64,000 nucleotides of DNA from Vagococcus teuberi (GTDB lineage Bacteria; Bacillota; Bacilli; Lactobacillales; Vagococcaceae). The position numbers and the translations under genes were made by a program. Location of the stretch: positions 1,910,501 to 1,974,500 of the forward strand of contig NZ_CP017267.1 of the NCBI RefSeq assembly GCF_001870205.1. The letters are read 5' to 3'. The notes under the pieces were generated by a model. The model searched no databases. It was not told where the DNA came from and saw nothing but the letters and a program-made list of their open reading frames with translations. Shown here piece after piece: positions 7,703 through 59,026 of the stretch (position 1 is its first letter; every line of letters begins with the position of its first letter).

Positions 7703-9154
<1,452 letters not shown>

Positions 9155-9157
9155 TCA

Positions 9158-11894
<2,737 letters not shown>

Positions 11895-11923
11895 GACTAT
11901 CACTTCCTTTCTGAAAAACAAAA

Positions 11924-11983
11924 AAGCAAAACCTCAAACAAGCCGTCATCTCTATTTAGAGAACACGCCTTCGTCTGAGGTTT
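11924..11983 (-). terminator. Leader terminator controlled by LicT
   Basis: On the minus strand AAAACCTCA and TGAGGTTTT form the outer stem of a hairpin followed by a T run, immediately before licT. Its 5' arm overlaps the RAT sequence, so RAT folding and termination exclude each other. Confidence 0.88.
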
Positions 11984-12007
11984 TGCCTGCTTGACCAGTT
12001 ACAATCC
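11979..12007 (-). promoter_or_regulatory. RAT ribonucleic antiterminator site
   Basis: Minus-strand GGATTGTAACTGGTCAAGCA followed by GGCAAAACC closely matches the LicT/SacT family RAT consensus. It is placed just 5' of, and overlapping, the leader terminator. Confidence 0.9.
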
Positions 12008-12019
12008 TTATTTGACTTC

Positions 12020-12048
12020 ATCATACCATGTGTTTTTATTTGCTTCAA
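12020..12048 (-). promoter_or_regulatory. Promoter of licT-bglP-bglA
   Basis: Minus strand: TTGAAG at 12048-12043, a 17-base spacer, TATGAT at 12025-12020. The start of transcription would fall just before the RAT. Confidence 0.75.
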
Positions 12049-12131
12049 CACATTTTTAATACTTTCATACAATATTCAAACATAACTAGCAACCAAAACA
12101 TAATTAATTTTATTAGCTTCAGTAAATTAAA

Positions 12132-12205
12132 CGTCCCTGATACGATTTGAACGTACGACACCCGTCTTAGGAGGACGGTGCTCTATCCAGCTGAGCTACA
12201 GGGAC
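12132..12205 (-). tRNA. tRNA-Arg (anticodon CCT)
   Basis: Complete cloverleaf on the minus strand: acceptor GTCCCTG/CAGGGAC, D-arm GCTC/GAGC, anticodon stem CCGTC/GACGG with loop CTCCTAA (anticodon CCT, reading AGG), T-arm GTACG/CGTAT with TTCAAAT loop, discriminator G. CCA is not encoded. Confidence 0.95.
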
Positions 12206-12267
12206 ATCAAAGACATTATGATTTTCTCACTTTTATCAGTAAAAGTCTAGTCACAATATCTTGCGTA

Positions 12268-12612: not shown

Positions 12613-13908
12613 TTATTTCCACTTCGCTCCTTTGTTCTTTTGCTTTTTGGTGCGATTTTTTTTCTTTTTCTTTTTAGGCGTTTCTTGTTTATCACGAACA
12701 GTTTCTTCTTTAACAACTGTCGCTTTAACTTTTTCTTCTTTAACCGGCTTAAGCGTTTCTATTTCTTCCTCATCAGAACGTGAATCAGGTTTTTCTGTTA
12801 ATAATTTTCCATGAGTAGCAAAATACTCTATTCCTGTTTTTCCCACTTCTTTATATAACTTGTTTAACTCTCGTTTCTCCCCATCATTGACTAAACTAAT
12901 CACTGTTCCTATTTTTCCCATACGTCCCACTCGTCCAGCACGATGTATATAATCAGGAACTGTTTGAGCCAAATCATACTGAATAACGTATTCTAAGTCA
13001 GAAAAATCTAATCCTCTTGCACCTAAATCTGTTGTTAAGAGTAGCGGCACTTGTCCTGTTTCAAAATCATGAATAGCACGTTTTCTTTCTACTTGGTGCT
13101 GATCTGAAGCAAGAGTCTGGTGCTTAATACCTAAATAATTTAATCGCTCAGATACTGCCCCTAACTCACTCACTTGATTAAAAAAGACTAACCCTTTAAA
13201 TCCCTCTACATGAGCCAATCGACGCAATACTTCAGAACGTTTTCTAACTGGAGTCATAATAAAGCCATGTTGAATGCTTCCTTTAGTATTATCTTCTTCT
13301 GTCACATCAATCACACGTAACGCTGTTCTAAATAACGTATCCATTCTTGGTAATATTTGTTCCCCTGTTGCTGATGTTGCAACAACTTGAGTATCAGCTT
13401 GAACACTTTTTATAATACCTTTTGTTGAGTTAAAATCAGCATCACTTAATAAATCATCTACCTCATCCAAGACTAATGTTTGGATTAAATGTGCTTTAAT
13501 TTTTTTTAGTTTAATTAATTCAAGTACTCGACCTGGCGTCCCAACTAACACTTCGGGACGTTTTTTTAATCGTTCGATTTGTCGCTTAACATTTGCCCCG
13601 CCGATAATGGCTTGAACATTTAATTCTAGTCCTTTAGCCCATACTCTCGTGACGTCAGCTACTTGACTTGCTAATTCTTGTGATGGCAAAATAATTAAGA
13701 GTTGATTTCCATTTCCTTGAATCACTTTTTGTAGTAACGGCAACAAATAAGCCACCGTTTTTCCTGATCCTGTCGGAGAAATACCTAATACACTTTCATT
13801 TTCTAATAATAATGGATATAAGGTACTTTGAATTAATGTTGGTTCCCCGTAGCTCTGTTTATCCCATTCTTTTTGCCAAACTTCTGGCAATAATTCTAAC
13901 ATACTCAT
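12613..13908 (-). CDS. DEAD-box RNA helicase
   Basis: ATP-dependent RNA helicase, 431 residues from the ATG at 13908 (GAGGG 8 bases upstream; the start overlaps the end of the oxidoreductase gene). Motifs in order: Q motif region PTLIQSTLYP, Walker A SPTGSGKT, PTREL-equivalent PSQEL, TPGR, DEVD in place of DEAD, SAT, and HRAGRVGRMG (motif VI). The C-terminus is a highly basic Lys/Arg tail (PKKKKKKNRTKKQKNKG), likely for RNA or ribosome binding. Similar short helicases act in ribosome assembly (YfmL/CshB type); the exact subfamily is uncertain. Confidence 0.92.
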   Translation of the reverse strand: MSMLELLPEVWQKEWDKQSYGEPTLIQSTLYPLLLENESVLGISPTGSGKTVAYLLPLLQKVIQGNGNQLLIILPSQELASQVADVTRVWAKGLELNVQAIIGGANVKRQIERLKKRPEVLVGTPGRVLELIKLKKIKAHLIQTLVLDEVDDLLSDADFNSTKGIIKSVQADTQVVATSATGEQILPRMDTLFRTALRVIDVTEEDNTKGSIQHGFIMTPVRKRSEVLRRLAHVEGFKGLVFFNQVSELGAVSERLNYLGIKHQTLASDQHQVERKRAIHDFETGQVPLLLTTDLGARGLDFSDLEYVIQYDLAQTVPDYIHRAGRVGRMGKIGTVISLVNDGEKRELNKLYKEVGKTGIEYFATHGKLLTEKPDSRSDEEEIETLKPVKEEKVKATVVKEETVRDKQETPKKKKKKNRTKKQKNKGAKWK

Positions 13909-27822: not shown

Positions 27823-28060
27823 AACAAAAAAGTCCTAAAGTTATTTCTAACTTTAGGACGATTATCTCGCGGTACCACCTATCTTATAAGCATACAAATA
27901 CGCTTATCTCTTTAGGTCATATAACGTTGACAATACGGTTCCCACTCCTAGGCTACCTTCATACTTTTAAATGGAAAATCTTTCAGCCGATGGATTTTCT
28001 TTCTGCAACATATCCAAGTATTACTCTTCCTATTCTTTGTGGTTGTTTATGCCATTCATT
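27823..28060 (-). promoter_or_regulatory. T-box leader of valS (tRNA-Val)
   Basis: The T-box sequence AGGTGGTACCGCGAGAT is at 27880-27864 on the minus strand. The terminator GTCCTAAAGTT / AACTTTAGGAC with T run follows (27859-27823). Stem I precedes; the stretch GAAGGTAGCC near 27963-27954 offers GTA (Val) as specifier followed by a purine. Uncharged tRNA-Val would stabilise the antiterminator and turn on valS-folC. Confidence 0.92.
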
Positions 28061-30302: not shown

Positions 30303-31450
30303 AAGTTAGCCACCTAGGCAAAAACATCTAAATTTCTATATTATTCTATTAAAATCCATTTTTACCAACATGTTTTGATTTTAAGCTTTTGAATTTCTTC
30401 TAAAAATAATGTTGCTGGTTGTCTATAACTTAAGATTTTACGTGGTAAAAGATTAATCTTTTCAGTAGCTAGTTGAATGAACTGTTTTGAATAGTGACAA
30501 ATTGGAGTTCCTTTCGGAACAACTTGTTTTAATAAACCATTATGTCTTTCATTTGTACCTCGTTCCCAGAAAGAATAAGGATGAGCAAAATAGACATCAG
30601 TTATTTGTTGGAGAGCATCATGTAGCGAGCTAAATTCACTACCATTATCAGCAGTAATTGACTGAAACATCTTGCTAAAGCTAGCTTGTCCGAGCTCGGA
30701 TTTTAATCGATTAGCAGCATAACAAACAGACTCTTCTGTATGATCATCTAACACAACAGTAATCATGTAACGCGTTTTTCTTTCAACAAGAGTAAGTAGA
30801 GCATTGTCATCTTTAGATTTTGCACCAATAACGCTATCTATTTCCCAATGACCAAAGCTTTCTCTATTGTTAATTGTACTTGGTCGCTCATCAATTAATT
30901 TTCCTAGTTCTTTTTTATGCTTACGACTTCTTTTCTTTTTAGATGAGAGCCTAAGCTTCATCTTGAGGTGATGGTTTCTAATAGGTAAAAATCCTTTATC
31001 AATATAGTTATAAAGTGTTTTAGTAGAAACAAGAGGTTTATCCCACGTCCTTAAGGACTTGACAAAACCAACAATGGCATCAGGTGACCAATTAAAGTCA
31101 ATAATCTGTTTACAGGCATAATTAATAAAGTCAACAGCACTGACTAGCTCAGAATTAGCGCCACAACATTTTCTGTTTTCTATCTATTTAGCTTGTCCTG
31201 TTTCAGCTCATTATTTATTGTTTGATGGTGCCGACCTAATCGTTTACCTATTTCTCTATTAGAAGTACCTTTATTATGCCAAACTTCAATAAGTTGTCTT
31301 TCCTCAAAGGAAAGATGTTCATAAGGCAGTTTTTGTGTGGTATTCTGAGTTTGTTCCATGATAAAAATTCCTTTCGTTGTTGGGTGGATAATTCAACGAT
31401 ACATGAATTTTTACCATGGTGTTTTTTTATTATTTTAGGGTGGCTAACTT
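30303..31450 (-). mobile_element. IS30-family insertion sequence, degraded
   Basis: About 1148 bp bounded by inverted repeats AAGTTAGCCACC (30303-30314) and GGTGGCTAACTT (31439-31450), which extend with one mismatch outward. It contains one transposase gene, broken. Target duplications could not be recognised with certainty. Confidence 0.85.
30362..31360 (-). pseudogene. IS30-family transposase, frameshifted
   Basis: Starts MEQTQNTTQKLPYEHLSFEE with the helix-turn-helix GTSNREIGKRLGRHHQTINNELK. The frame then breaks near 31200 (stop after KLNR). It resumes as ENRKCCGANSELVSAVDFINYACKQ and continues into the DDE core: GHWEIDSVIG, ITADNGSEF, YFAHPYSFWERGTNERHNGLLKQ. Some 20-25 residues seem lost at the break. 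The catalytic residues are kept, but a functional enzyme would need frameshifting or another copy. Confidence 0.88.
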
Positions 31451-47070: not shown

Positions 47071-47285
47071 AAAAGCACCCTTTAACAATACACATATACT
47101 GTTAAAAGACGCTCTCACGTGGTTCCACTTTTTTTCATTCACTTTACTTAGTGAATCTTTTTGATAATGTAACGTCTATCACACGAGACTAACTACTTAT
47201 TTCACTAGTCCTACTCAAAGAGGCATTTCACTGATATATTGCCACTTGTTTGCACCTACCACAAGCTCTCTAAAGACACGATATC
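47071..47285 (-). promoter_or_regulatory. T-box leader of cysS (tRNA-Cys)
   Basis: T-box sequence AGTGGAACCACGTGAGAGCG at 47128-47109 on the minus strand. The terminator TTTTAACA / TGTTAAA with T run follows (47112-47072). In Stem I, GTGAAATGCCTC near 47233-47222 offers TGC (Cys) as specifier. It lies between gltX and cysS and lets cysS-mrnC-rlmB-rae1 respond to uncharged tRNA-Cys. Confidence 0.9.
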
Positions 47286-47296
47286 ACTTACTTTTC

Positions 47297-48772
47297 TTAT
47301 CCTTGTATTTCGTTTAATGCTAAATTAATATGTTCAGTTGCTTGATCTTTACCTAATAAAAGAATCGTTTCTGCTAATTCTGGACCATGCATTTGACCAC
47401 TCACGGCTACACGAATTGGCATGAACAGTTTTTTACCTTTAGCACCTGTTTCTTTTTGTACAGCTTTAATTGCTTTTTTAATTGCTGGAACATCAAATTC
47501 TTCTAAGTCATTTAATTCTTTTTTAAATGCTTCTAATACTTCTGGTACTTGCTCATCTGATAAGACTTCTTTAGCGGCATCATCAAATGTCAATGTATCA
47601 TTAAAGAATAAACTGGATAATTCAACAATTTCTTTTGCATAACTCATTTGTGGTTGGTAAAGACTTACCAATTCTTCCACCCATGCTTGTTTTTCAGCTG
47701 ATGGGTTTTCTTCTACTAAACCTGCTTCGATTAAGTATGGTAAAGCCATCTCTGCCATTGTTTTTCTATCAAGTTGTTTCATGTATTGATTGCTAATCCA
47801 CTCAAGTTTTTTATTATCAAATGCTGCAGGCGATTTACCTAAACGATCTGCATCAAAGATTTTAATAAACTCTTCTTGGCTAAAGATTTCTTCTTCACCC
47901 ACTGGAGACCAGCCTAGTAAACTAATAAAGTTAAACATCGCTTCTGGTAAGTAACCTAATTCACGGTATTGTTCGATAAATTGTAGAATCGTTTCATCAC
48001 GTTTACTTAATTTTTTACCTGTTTCAGTATTAATGATTAATGTCATATGACCAAATCTTGGTGGAGTCCATCCAAATGCTTCATAAACCATTAATTGTTT
48101 TGGTGTGTTCGCAATATGATCATCTCCACGTAAAACGTGTGTAATTTTCATTAAATGATCATCCACAGCAACCGCAAAGTTATATGTTGGTATCCCGTCA
48201 CGTTTTAAAATGACAAAATCGCCACCAACACTATCAGATTCAAATGTAATGTTTCCTTTTACAATGTCATCAAATGTGTATTCTTCGCCTTTTGGTACTC
48301 TAAAACGAACAACTGGTGTAATTCCTTCAGCTTCTTTAGCTGCTTGTTGTTCTGGTGTTAAGTGAGCACATTTTCCGTTGTAACGTGGAATTTGTCCACG
48401 ACTACGTTGGCTCTCACGTTCTGTTTCTAATTCTTCTTCGGTACAGTAACATTTATAAGCTAAATTACTTGCTAATAATTGATCTACTAATGGTTGATAG
48501 ATATCTTTTCTTTCAGATTGACGATAAGGACCGTATTCACCTGGCTTATCAGGTGACTCATCCCAGTCAATATTTAGCCATGCTAAGTTATCTAACTGAC
48601 TTTTTTCTCCGTCTTCAATATTACGTTTTTGGTCTGTATCCTCTATACGAATGATAAAATCACCGCCATGATGACGAGCAAATAAATAATTAAATAATGC
48701 TGTTCGAGCATTTCCAATATGCAAATGACCTGTTGGACTTGGTGCATATCTGACACGTACTTTATTTCCCAT
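47297..48772 (-). CDS. gltX: Glutamyl-tRNA synthetase
   Basis: Charges tRNA-Glu (and often tRNA-Gln in Firmicutes). 491 residues from the ATG at 48772 (GGAAGG 7 bases upstream). HIGH motif [18 protein letters not shown] at about 9-26, KLSKRD near 255, anticodon-binding helices at the C-terminus. Confidence 0.98.
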
Positions 48773-54119: not shown

Positions 54120-54303
54120 TTTTTTCACTCCTCATTTCTTTAAAAAGTTAGTATTCATGACAATCATATACTCATTTTTTTTAAAGTCAACACTCAAATA
54201 AAAAAATTCATTTTCTATTAGTGGAAACACAATTAAAAATAAGTTATTATAGCATGGATAGACACTAAAAAAAATAGTCATTAAACAAAAAAGAGGGATT
54301 ACT

Positions 54304-55110
54304 TTGGAGAGAAAAAAATTATTAAAAGAAAGTAAGCGACTCGTTATTAAAGTCGGGACCAGTTCGTTGGTTCTACCAAATACAGAGATTAATTTACGAG
54401 CAATCGATCAATTAGCTTTTACACTCACATCACTTAGACAACTAGGGTACGAAGTCATTTTAGTTTCTTCAGGTGCGATTGGTGTTGGAATGAAATTACT
54501 TGGTTTAGATAAACGACCTGAAACAATCGCAAAACAACAAGCGGTGGCTGCAATTGGTCAATCTGAACTGATTAAAATATACACACAACGTTTTGCAGCC
54601 TACTATCAGCAATCTGCCCAAGTGTTATTAACTCGCGACGTGATTGACTTTCCAACAAGCAGACAAAACGTCATTAACACATTTGAAGAACTGCTTAATA
54701 TGGGAGTGATTCCTATCGTTAACGAAAATGACAGCGTGTCGGTTGATGAATTGGACCACTTAACAAAATTTGGCGACAACGACCAATTATCTGCTATTGT
54801 ATGTAGCTTAGCTCAGGCTGACTTATTACTGATGTTATCTGATATTGATGGGTTTTACGATGATAATCCACAAACAAATCCAGAAGCTCAACTTTTCTCC
54901 CATATTTCGGAAATTACAGATGTTATGGAAATGGCAGCAGGTGATAAAGGAAGCGAGTTTGGTACTGGAGGTATGGCTAGTAAACTAAAAGCAGCAAAAC
55001 GAGTACTAGACAATCAATCTCAAATGATTTTAGCTAGTGGAAAAGATCCGGCTATTTTATTTGATATTTTAGAAGGTAAAACAGTTGGGACACTTTTTTC
55101 AAATATGTGA
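54304..55110 (+). CDS. proB: Glutamate 5-kinase
   Basis: First step of proline synthesis. 268 residues from TTG (GAGGG about 7 bases upstream; no suitable ATG). Amino acid kinase fold: RLVIKVGTSSLV, VSSGAIGVG, NENDSVS, GTGGMASKLKAA. There is no C-terminal PUA domain, as in other short Firmicute ProB proteins. proA starts 19 bases downstream. Confidence 0.95.
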   Translation: MERKKLLKESKRLVIKVGTSSLVLPNTEINLRAIDQLAFTLTSLRQLGYEVILVSSGAIGVGMKLLGLDKRPETIAKQQAVAAIGQSELIKIYTQRFAAYYQQSAQVLLTRDVIDFPTSRQNVINTFEELLNMGVIPIVNENDSVSVDELDHLTKFGDNDQLSAIVCSLAQADLLLMLSDIDGFYDDNPQTNPEAQLFSHISEITDVMEMAAGDKGSEFGTGGMASKLKAAKRVLDNQSQMILASGKDPAILFDILEGKTVGTLFSNM

Positions 55111-56374: not shown

Positions 56375-56404
56375 ATTTACTTTTCAGGAGGGAAATGAAC
56401 GATT

Positions 56405-59026
56405 ATGTCATCAAAAATAAAAAAAAGTTTTAAAACTAGTGGTAAGTATGGACTTACCGCTTTTATAATTCCCTTTTTAATCATGATAGGCGTCTATCTT
56501 AGCCTAGGAATTTACCCTGGAAGTGCTAGAAGCGTATTAGCAAGTGATGCCTTTTCACAGTTTTCAAATTTTCATGCAAGTTTCAATAATGTTTTACATG
56601 GTAAACAAAGTATCTTTTATACATGGGATGCCTCACTTGGGTTGAACTACTGGTCACTTATTTCTTATTATTTAGGTGGAATATTCACACCGATTGTCTT
56701 CTTTTTTGATAATCAAAATATTCCTGACGCATTATATGTTATGACGTTGATTAAAATTGGTGCTGCAAGTCTATCTTTTTGGTATTTTGCCAAAGAAACG
56801 TATAAATTACCAAATCTCTCTCATGTGACTTTAGCCATATCATATTCCTTAATGTCGTTTGCTATGGCTCAATCAGAATTAATTATGTGGTTAGACGTCT
56901 TTATGTACCTACCTCTTGTCTTCTTAGGAATCAATCGCGTGCTTGAAAAAGGAAAGTCCGCACTGTTATTTGTTTCATATTTCTTGTTGTTTGTTTCGAA
57001 TTTTTATTTTGGATTTATGGTTGGATTGTTTTCATTTCTTTATTTCGTTGTTAGAGTGGCAACAAACTCACAATTATATAAAAAACGAATCGTTCCCTAC
57101 TTAACAACGTCACTACTTGCTGGTGTTGCATCAATGATTATGATTCTTCCAGCTGTTTTTGATTTACTATCTAATGGTGAAACCCTATCAGAAATGACAA
57201 AATTTAAAACAGAAGCAACTGCCTTTTGGGACATCGTCATAAAAAATATGATAGGTGTTTATGATACAACAAAATATGGTTCTATTCCTTTTATTTATGT
57301 TGGTATTTTGCCACTTATTTTCTGTATTTTCTACTTCTGTTCACGAGTAATTCCATTAAAGAATAAAATTGGTTATGCCAGTTTGTTTGCCGTCTTAATA
57401 GCAAGTTTTTATATTGAACCTCTTAACTTATTCTGGCACGGCATGCATGCTCCAAACATGTTTTTATTCAGATATAGCTTCTTATTTTCATTTTTAGTTG
57501 TGATGCTAGCTGGATTTGGATGGGAAAAATTCACTAAAAAAGATTTAAATGTGATGGTAGGAATTGTCTTAATTTTAGCTGTACTATTTTCAATGGCATT
57601 CTTTGCTTCAAGTAAAGATAGTTATGCTTTTGTCACATTGAAACAATTTGTCTTGACCATTTTATTCTTGGCTTTATATCTTGTGGGAATCTTTTTCTAT
57701 CAAATCAATCAGTTACCTAGAAAATCTTTTGTCTTTCTATTATTACTCATAGTAACTGGGGAAGCCTACATCAATACATCATTTATGTTAAATGGTATTT
57801 TAGAAGACTGGAACTATGCTTCAAGAAGTCTTTACTCTAGTCCATATCCTGATTATAAATACTTGGTTGATAAAGCTGAAGAAGACGATAAAGACTCTTT
57901 CCAACGTTTAGAATCATTATCTCCAATTTCAAGCAATGATAGCTTTAATTATGGTTATAGCGGCATTAGTATGTTTTCTTCTATTAGAAATCGACATTCT
58001 TCTGCTTTACTAAATACTTTAGGGTTTAGATCGAGAGGGACTAGTTTAAATATACGCTATCAAAATAATACATTATTAATGGATAGCTTGATGGGGATTA
58101 AATATAATATCAGTACTCAAAACGTGTTGAAGTATGGTTTTTTACCTATAGAAAAACGAGGAAAATACACATTATATGAAAATAAAAATGCTATACCTAT
58201 AGGAATGCTTACAAATGAAGAGTTGTATAAAATAAAACTACCTGAAAAGGATAATTTAGGTGCTCAAACGAATTTAGTCAATCAATTAGCTGATTTAAAT
58301 GAAGTTTACTATACCTTCACATCACCATCAGTAATTAGTACACAGAATGCTCAAATCACTAATTTATCTAATAATCGAATAGCTATCAAAGAGCAACAGC
58401 CGAATGTCGCAAAAGTAGTTAACTACCAAGTTAGTGTTCCTGCTGGAAAACAAGCTTACTATAGTCTATTTCCAACAAACTTTGGAGCATTAAAAAGTTC
58501 TACGGCTAAAGTAACGACGCAAAATGTCAGTTATGAGTCACAAATTGGTATCACTGGACAATATTACAACCTAGGATATTTCAAAGAAGATTCGATCGTT
58601 GAATTTTCTGTGACACTTTATGGGACAGATGAAGTTGAATTAATTAATCCGCCAGTTGTTTTATTGGATATCCCAAAATTCGATGCTGCAATGAACTCTA
58701 TAAAAGATAAAGGGGTAGAATTTGTTGTAAATGGTAGAAAAGCAACGGCTCATGTTGAAACTCCTGAAGAACAAGTCGTCTTTACGACCATTCCTTTTGA
58801 CAAAGGTTGGACCGTAAAAGTTGATAATAAACAAGTCGCAACAAAAGATTTTCAAGATGGGTTCTTAACATTTAACGTTCCAGCAGGTGTTCATGATATT
58901 GAATTAAGCTTCTTACCTCCTGGTTTTGTTGTTGGTGTCATATGTTTCTTTAGTGCTACAGGACTGTTCATTATTTACTACATATTTACAAACACAAAAA
59001 AAGTTAAAAAAAGAAGAGCCCTTTAA
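56405..59026 (+). CDS. YfhO-family membrane protein
   Basis: 873 residues: a multi-pass membrane part of about 12 helices in the first 470 residues and near the C-terminus (GFVVGVICFFSATGLFIIYYIF), with a large extracellular domain between. GT-C-like family linked to glycosylation of lipoteichoic or other surface polymers. Follows proA by 30 bases with its own GGAGG; co-transcription is possible. The exact sugar and target are unknown. Confidence 0.9.
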   Translation: MSSKIKKSFKTSGKYGLTAFIIPFLIMIGVYLSLGIYPGSARSVLASDAFSQFSNFHASFNNVLHGKQSIFYTWDASLGLNYWSLISYYLGGIFTPIVFFFDNQNIPDALYVMTLIKIGAASLSFWYFAKETYKLPNLSHVTLAISYSLMSFAMAQSELIMWLDVFMYLPLVFLGINRVLEKGKSALLFVSYFLLFVSNFYFGFMVGLFSFLYFVVRVATNSQLYKKRIVPYLTTSLLAGVASMIMILPAVFDLLSNGETLSEMTKFKTEATAFWDIVIKNMIGVYDTTKYGSIPFIYVGILPLIFCIFYFCSRVIPLKNKIGYASLFAVLIASFYIEPLNLFWHGMHAPNMFLFRYSFLFSFLVVMLAGFGWEKFTKKDLNVMVGIVLILAVLFSMAFFASSKDSYAFVTLKQFVLTILFLALYLVGIFFYQINQLPRKSFVFLLLLIVTGEAYINTSFMLNGILEDWNYASRSLYSSPYPDYKYLVDKAEEDDKDSFQRLESLSPISSNDSFNYGYSGISMFSSIRNRHSSALLNTLGFRSRGTSLNIRYQNNTLLMDSLMGIKYNISTQNVLKYGFLPIEKRGKYTLYENKNAIPIGMLTNEELYKIKLPEKDNLGAQTNLVNQLADLNEVYYTFTSPSVISTQNAQITNLSNNRIAIKEQQPNVAKVVNYQVSVPAGKQAYYSLFPTNFGALKSSTAKVTTQNVSYESQIGITGQYYNLGYFKEDSIVEFSVTLYGTDEVELINPPVVLLDIPKFDAAMNSIKDKGVEFVVNGRKATAHVETPEEQVVFTTIPFDKGWTVKVDNKQVATKDFQDGFLTFNVPAGVHDIELSFLPPGFVVGVICFFSATGLFIIYYIFTNTKKVKKRRAL

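Follow-up and report, generated by a model that had tools for sequence, protein, structure and literature searches.

Where does translation of licT begin in Vagococcus teuberi, and is its product made in useful amounts? The question is raised by a beta-glucoside (bgl) operon on the minus strand of the 64,000-nucleotide stretch of DNA analysed here (hereafter, the window), in which the antiterminator gene has ATT at the position where its homologues begin with Met. Two readings of this codon had been offered in the first-pass annotation: either ATT is a rare start that brings LicT down to a useful amount, or a single base change has rendered the operon cryptic.

The bgl operon and the probable start site of licT

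The operon and its leader comprise the following features.

7703–9145, minus strand: bglA, of the GH1 6-phospho-beta-glucosidase type (PF00232)
9158–11038, minus strand: bglP, beta-glucoside PTS IIABC (TIGR01995, 752 bits against a cut-off of 614.7; ATG at 11038)
11043–11894, minus strand: licT, 283 residues from ATT, with a CAT RNA-binding domain and two PRDs (Pfam PF03123 and PF00874; NCBIfam)
11892–11894, minus strand: ATT, the putative licT start codon, in the alignment column of the homologues' Met
11899–11912, minus strand: extended Shine-Dalgarno (SD) sequence AGAAAGGAAGTGAT, longest exact run 8
11918–11987, minus strand: long hairpin in the leader with a T tract behind it, an intrinsic terminator overlapping the RAT (RNA fold)
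11979–12007, minus strand: ribonucleic antiterminator (RAT) GGATTGTAACTGGTCAAGCAGGCAAAACC, with one mismatch to the consensus used
12020–12048, minus strand: promoter-like TTGAAG-17-TATGAT with TG before the -10 hexamer (consensus match only)

The LicT protein was matched by PF03123 at 60.9 bits and by PF00874 as two stretches, matches the LicT structures 1tlv, 1h99, and 1l1c, and narrowly passes the NCBIfam LicT equivalog model (303.8 bits against a cut-off of 300), while the NCBIfam models matching bglA all score under their cut-offs. The RAT match and the fold together show the leader arrangement typical of the LicT family, in which RAT and intrinsic terminator overlap. The leader hairpin has a z-score of -6.1, with 0 of 200 shuffles as stable; a simple terminator scan reported none in the licT leader, but its rules admit only loops of 3–8 nt, and the hairpin here exceeds this and is interrupted. 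Rfam at its gathering threshold gave no match at the licT RAT. A consensus scan of 301 bases returned six promoter-like sites as against 1.4 in shuffles, and the second promoter hexamer reads TATCAT in two of the Vagococcus orthologues described below (L004 and L005). The first-pass description of RAT, terminator, promoter, bglP, and bglA as intact therefore agrees with the single RAT mismatch, the stable hairpin, the promoter-like site, and the open frames. Upstream of the operon lie tRNA-Arg(CCT) (12131–12206, minus strand) and a stand-alone lactose/cellobiose-type PTS IIB gene (PF02302; 12268–12591, minus strand), and elsewhere in the window two T-box leaders score over the Rfam gathering score (47102–47312 and 27851–28046, both on the minus strand).

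Read along the minus strand, the frame of licT is TTG TTT TTC AGA AAG GAA GTG ATA GTC ATT AAA ATT ATC AAG ATA CTA AAT AAT. ATT occupies the homologues' Met position, which bears out the claim that it stands in place of the start codon. The SD AGAAAGGAAGTGAT matches the full SD of Bacilli AGAAAGGAGGTGAT at 13 of 14 letters (counted by eye) and reads AGAAAGGGAGTGAT in the orthologue L006; its GGAAG core lies 8 nt from ATT, and AAAGGAA ends 9 nt before the codon, the distance originally given. The in-frame GTG (11901–11903) falls within the SD and the in-frame TTG (11919–11921) within the T-tract of the terminator, so that the coordinates likewise confirm what had been said of these two codons, and the first in-frame ATG downstream of ATT is within the RNA-binding domain. 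When pairing with the 16S tail was computed over the 19 nt ending 3 nt before each codon, the duplex energy came to -17.5 kcal/mol at ATT, as against -4.9 at GTG and -6.8 at TTG. These energies, and the place of ATT at the homologues' Met, speak against a chance match. Judged from pairing and spacing, ATT is the codon to which the licT SD points. The gene thus combines a near-cognate codon at a conserved start position with a strong, well-spaced SD and canonical starts that appear unusable, GTG being ruled out in licT by geometry alone, with exclusion by a stop codon confined to two loci, L035 and L036, of the second antiterminator, licT2, described below.

Among 59 long frames in the window, five have a near-cognate codon preceded by a longer SD run than that of their best early canonical start, with the longest run (8) in licT and runs of 6 in each of bglP, 30362–31183, 54262–55110, and 56399–59026. 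The frames at 54262–55110 and 56399–59026 (both on the plus strand) have ATT behind the run of 6, probably by chance, and the frame at 30362–31183 (minus strand), which lacks a good start, resembles by eye a fragment of an IS30-type transposase. The program listing open reading frames with ATG, GTG, or TTG starts set the start of licT 27 nt too far upstream; start callers limited to these three codons cannot find starts of this kind.

Relatives of licT and a second bgl operon in the same genome

An orthologue of licT was found in 4 of the 14 Vagococcus genomes examined, the window's own included, and all four (L001, L004, L005, and L006) have ATT at the start position and a RAT. The V. bubulae record L033 also has ATT, although it is probably a duplicate and adds no independence. 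Enterococcus aquimarinus (L034, 73% identical) and a member of one further genus (L007, 62%) have ATG in the corresponding column. The in-frame GTG is also conserved in all four Vagococcus orthologues, and conservation in licT alone therefore cannot choose between GTG and ATT; the upstream TTG is replaced by TTT in L005 and shifted in position in L006, and was rejected as a start because it is not conserved. Whether relatives share a conserved start further upstream, the check that had been proposed, thus holds in form only: GTG is shared but lies within the SD, and TTG is lost in one species and displaced in another.

Across the four species, dN/dS was 0.04–0.11 for licT at dS of 0.08–0.19, and 0.04–0.09 for bglP and bglA, both of which are intact in all four without internal stops; by these ratios, licT, bglP, and bglA are under purifying selection. 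Nucleotide identity of licT is 0.96–0.98 in all pairs and even along the gene (0.94–1.00 per bin), whereas that of bglP/bglA, in a comparison of window positions 12900–6500 with L259, L260, and L261, forms a mosaic of 0.81–1.00 per 150-nt bin. This difference suggests recombination between Vagococcus species, so that the four ATT copies, which also show low divergence, are not fully independent observations.

At E ≤ 1e-5, the window's own genome encodes two further antiterminators of the CAT-PRD kind. One of these, L002, has an ATG start, and the other, licT2, heads a second bgl operon.

G000:C1:220479–221327, plus strand: licT2 (L003/L035), 29% identical to LicT
L151 4480–9789: second bgl operon, with licT2, a IIABC transporter, a GH1 6-phospho-beta-glucosidase, and a Cof-type HAD hydrolase

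With the NCBIfam models, licT2 scores 286.3 bits for LicT, a narrow miss of the cut-off of 300, and 213 for GlcT; an initial "glcT-like" label was dropped, given the closer match to LicT and the bgl-type operon. Its start region reads ATGAGGTGATTTAA ATT CTA TCG ATA GTT AAG. In L035 and L036 an in-frame TAA immediately precedes ATT, and the next in-frame TTG sits in the SLNN motif, so that a start there would cut into the RNA-binding motif—the very place at which the open-reading-frame program truncated licT2.

Among the 12 licT2 loci at 57% identity or more, eight have ATT, one ATC, one GTG, and two ATG. At identities of 57–99%, ATT is found in L035, L036, L037, L039, L040, L042, L043, and L044, and ATC in L038; the canonical codons are GTG in L041 and ATG in L148 and in L045, where the ATG lies one codon earlier and is followed by ATA. 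The more distant members of the group (L046, L047, and L149, at about 50% identity) have ATG. Synonymous sites are mostly saturated between these orthologues. In L035, L036, L039, L040, and L042 the stretch from SD to ATT is free of canonical codons, and an in-frame GTG in or touching the SD is present in four of the nine ATT/ATC loci (L037, L038, L043, and L044). Additional in-frame ATG codons touch the SD in L037 and L044, with weak pairing ahead of them (-1.5 and -3.8 kcal/mol, respectively). A tree of 15 loci of the group, in which the outgroup L001 was coded as canonical though it has ATT, gave four changes of start state, of which at least three are forced; L148 could not be placed outside the ATT loci and is counted among the close orthologues. 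On this evidence, the non-canonical start of licT2 appears to be old or recurrent but is labile, and the exchange of ATT and ATC with ATG and GTG at one column fits a start codon better than a conserved Ile.

Start codons of antiterminators and of infC

Among the matches listed, 139 antiterminators of Lactobacillales comprised 94 with ATG (L045 included), 17 with GTG, 14 with TTG, 12 with ATT, one with ATC, and one other. These counts were made after removal of the duplicates L003 and L033 and of L062, whose N-terminus is absent from the open frame, and cover the listed matches except for at least six places. Five loci mis-anchored or unanchored in the survey (L018, L107, L109, L131, and L142) were read by eye as GTG, ATG, ATG, GTG, and TTG, respectively. 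A further 66 loci of the class—26 from the search and 40 picked to spread over genera, with L187–L189 and L206 omitted as repeats, and 64 of them outside the order—were all canonical (50 ATG, 12 GTG, and 4 TTG). In total, 14 of 212 antiterminators (the 139, the five, L148 and L149, and the 66) have a non-canonical start. The one other is L141, which has no canonical codon at the usual place and perhaps starts with CTG; in this BglG-family gene from another family of the order (786–803, G060:C7), GGAG leads to CTG (or ATA), but an in-frame TTG also overlaps its SD, which makes the CTG a guess. No second copy was found in the three genomes of its genus that were searched.

All 14 non-canonical starts lie behind the gene's own RAT, although they originate from only two or three lineages. 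They account for 14 of 67 RAT-bearing loci as against 0 of 72 others (p = 1.7e-5), start type (ATG versus other) against RAT gives p = 0.011, and SD energy in 13 non-canonical versus 125 canonical loci gives p = 0.005, all three values being descriptive, uncorrected for kinship, and subject to the same two or three origins. ATG is the start in 38 of the 67 RAT-bearing antiterminators, and ATT is therefore not required for an autoregulated circuit but would be one of several solutions. In a tree of the 139 proteins, built by a quick method and containing long branches, the ATT groups of licT and licT2 are separate, and the non-AUG label needs four changes, at least three of them forced by starred branches.

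As a control of the method, infC was read in the same manner: 31 genomes matched and 30 loci (L157–L186) were read. The Met position was found to be non-AUG in all 30—ATA in 28, ATC in L159, and ATT in L160. In 23 of the 30, however, an ATG stands in frame two codons ahead of this position and 3 nt from GGAGG, which counts against the control; the other seven have none. A pattern search of the window's own genome for AGGAGGTG followed by 3–6 nt and ATH gave 10 matches at nine sites (L270 and L271 being one), compared with 12 for the reversed control, and every match has ATG or TTG 5–9 nt past the motif, so that none needs an ATH start. The strict pattern would miss licT, licT2, and infC, and hence bounds the genome-wide question of ATT starts only partly.

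A probable weak start in a proposed self-activating switch

The reading that we prefer, and regard as probable, is that licT initiates at AUU with the help of the extended SD, and that this weak start holds back an antiterminator which switches on its own transcription. LicT activity is set by PTS phosphorylation, as is known for the family. Translation of licT would begin at AUU (11892–11894), in all likelihood read by the fMet initiator tRNA, and the weakness of the codon would be offset by the long SD 8 nt away. Because initiation at AUU is inefficient and IF3 selects against it, few LicT molecules would be made per transcript. Since licT sits behind its own RAT and terminator, active LicT would promote its own transcription in a positive loop; a low rate of synthesis per transcript would lower the gain of this loop, so that chance read-through without beta-glucoside would not latch the operon on, and with sugar the loop would still close. 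A self-activating antiterminator would, on this proposal, need low gain to stay off without sugar, which AUU would supply, and licT2, in the second bgl operon and on a separate family branch, would have arrived at the same solution. Of the two initial readings, lowering to a useful level is thus favored by ATT in all four orthologues, by the low dN/dS of licT, and by the parallel in licT2, with the lower output itself a prediction. It is a more tentative proposition, on balance doubtful, that weak starts have been selected repeatedly as part of antitermination switches that activate themselves, with exchange of AUG with AUU, AUC, or CUG behind an extended SD setting the threshold, possibly in a manner sensitive to IF3 and growth state.

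Several other accounts of the ATT were weighed. Were licT to start at the GTG, giving M-I-V-I-K-I as annotation software might assign it, the ATT would simply encode an internal Ile. In favor of this are the frame of the GTG and its conservation in all four orthologues, its frequency as a start in the family (17 of 139), and the GTG or ATG codons that stand in frame within or beside the SD of some licT2 loci. Against it, and the reason for its rejection, the GTG is part of the SD, with a pairing of only -4.9 kcal/mol ahead of it; a start there would also add three residues absent from the homologues. In licT2, L035 and L036 allow no upstream in-frame start and yet have ATT with the same geometry. 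We therefore consider a GTG start to be rather unlikely. Reinitiation at ATT, coupled to a short frame that runs from an ATG in the terminator stem to the TAA of CATTAA, draws on the 19-codon frame and the overlap of CAT TAA with ATT AAA in L001, L004, and L005. However, in L006 an extra T moves the end of this frame to a TGA within the SD, the ATG of the frame lies in the terminator stem, and the licT2 group has no conserved counterpart by eye in the alignment; the account was rejected on loss of the frame in L006 and is very improbable.

That the operon has become cryptic, with licT silenced by ATT, would accord with the literature on AUU as a poor start codon, but the codon is common to four species in which licT, bglP, and bglA are intact and under purifying selection; this half of the first-pass annotation was rejected and is now highly improbable. 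An error of sequencing or assembly would have to alter only a single base, ATT versus ATG, but is scarcely credible because the relatives carry the same ATT, and was discarded since four genomes of Vagococcus agree. A different function for the same start, namely that AUU does more than lower LicT output and ties it to IF3 level or growth state, and thereby sugar use to translation capacity, is an unlikely but arguable alternative to simple throttling. According to PMC5472188, IF3 represses non-canonical starts; infC is itself non-AUG at its Met position in all 30 loci; and in Staphylococcus aureus the AUA start of ccpN is medium-dependent, although the AUU start of cvfC1 is without medium effect (both from PMC13009471). 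Sequence cannot tell such coupling from throttling.

Throttling by a weak start is already known from infC, sigR, and ccpN. What is new here is the class of protein, the occurrence in two separate lineages within one genome, and—as a hypothesis—the tie to a positive loop. A search of the open literature, mostly by listings, found no antiterminator with such a non-canonical start, and few non-canonical bacterial starts have been characterized experimentally, as stated in PMC5472188. If AUU use is true, RNA-binding antiterminators would join the small set of regulators restrained by their start codon, and a single codon would offer a handle on the gain of a positive-feedback operon; the two operons of one genome, together with relatives having ATG at the same position, form a natural comparison.

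Among known systems, Bacillus subtilis LicT and Escherichia coli BglG are the closest, with the same CAT-PRD-PRD organization, RAT and terminator leader, and bglP/bglA operon, but with a canonical start where Vagococcus licT has ATT; in Vagococcus, the RAT lies in front of licT itself, as in many surveyed loci. Translation of E. coli pcnB is reported to be limited by an inefficient AUU start, although the protein is unrelated and is not known to be autoregulated by antitermination. NagY of Enterococcus faecalis, which is of the BglG/SacY type, is documented to regulate its own expression through its leader (PMC9981650 and PMC12502629). As in licT, a strong SD precedes a near-cognate codon at the Met position in infC of E. 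coli and Bacillota, but there the weak codon serves negative autoregulation by the gene's own product (PMC5472188), whereas LicT is an activator in a positive loop. In the Bacillota, S. aureus cvfC1 (AUU) and ccpN (AUA) share with licT a conserved non-canonical start and an extended SD; such starts give about 10% of the output of AUG in poor medium and, for ccpN, up to 30% in rich medium, and are backed by ribosome profiling (PMC13009471), while the licT start was read from sequence. CcpN, a transcriptional repressor, and CvfC1, of 61 residues and little-known function, are not RNA-binding antiterminators. A further analogy is Streptomyces sigR, in which a weak start likewise holds down a regulator: its GTC start is repressed by IF3 and needed to avoid constitutive output, and a canonical start renders the regulon constitutive (PMC5472188). 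The sigR circuit is one of sigma and anti-sigma factors with a different codon, and the effect demonstrated there by experiment is the one that would be expected of licT.
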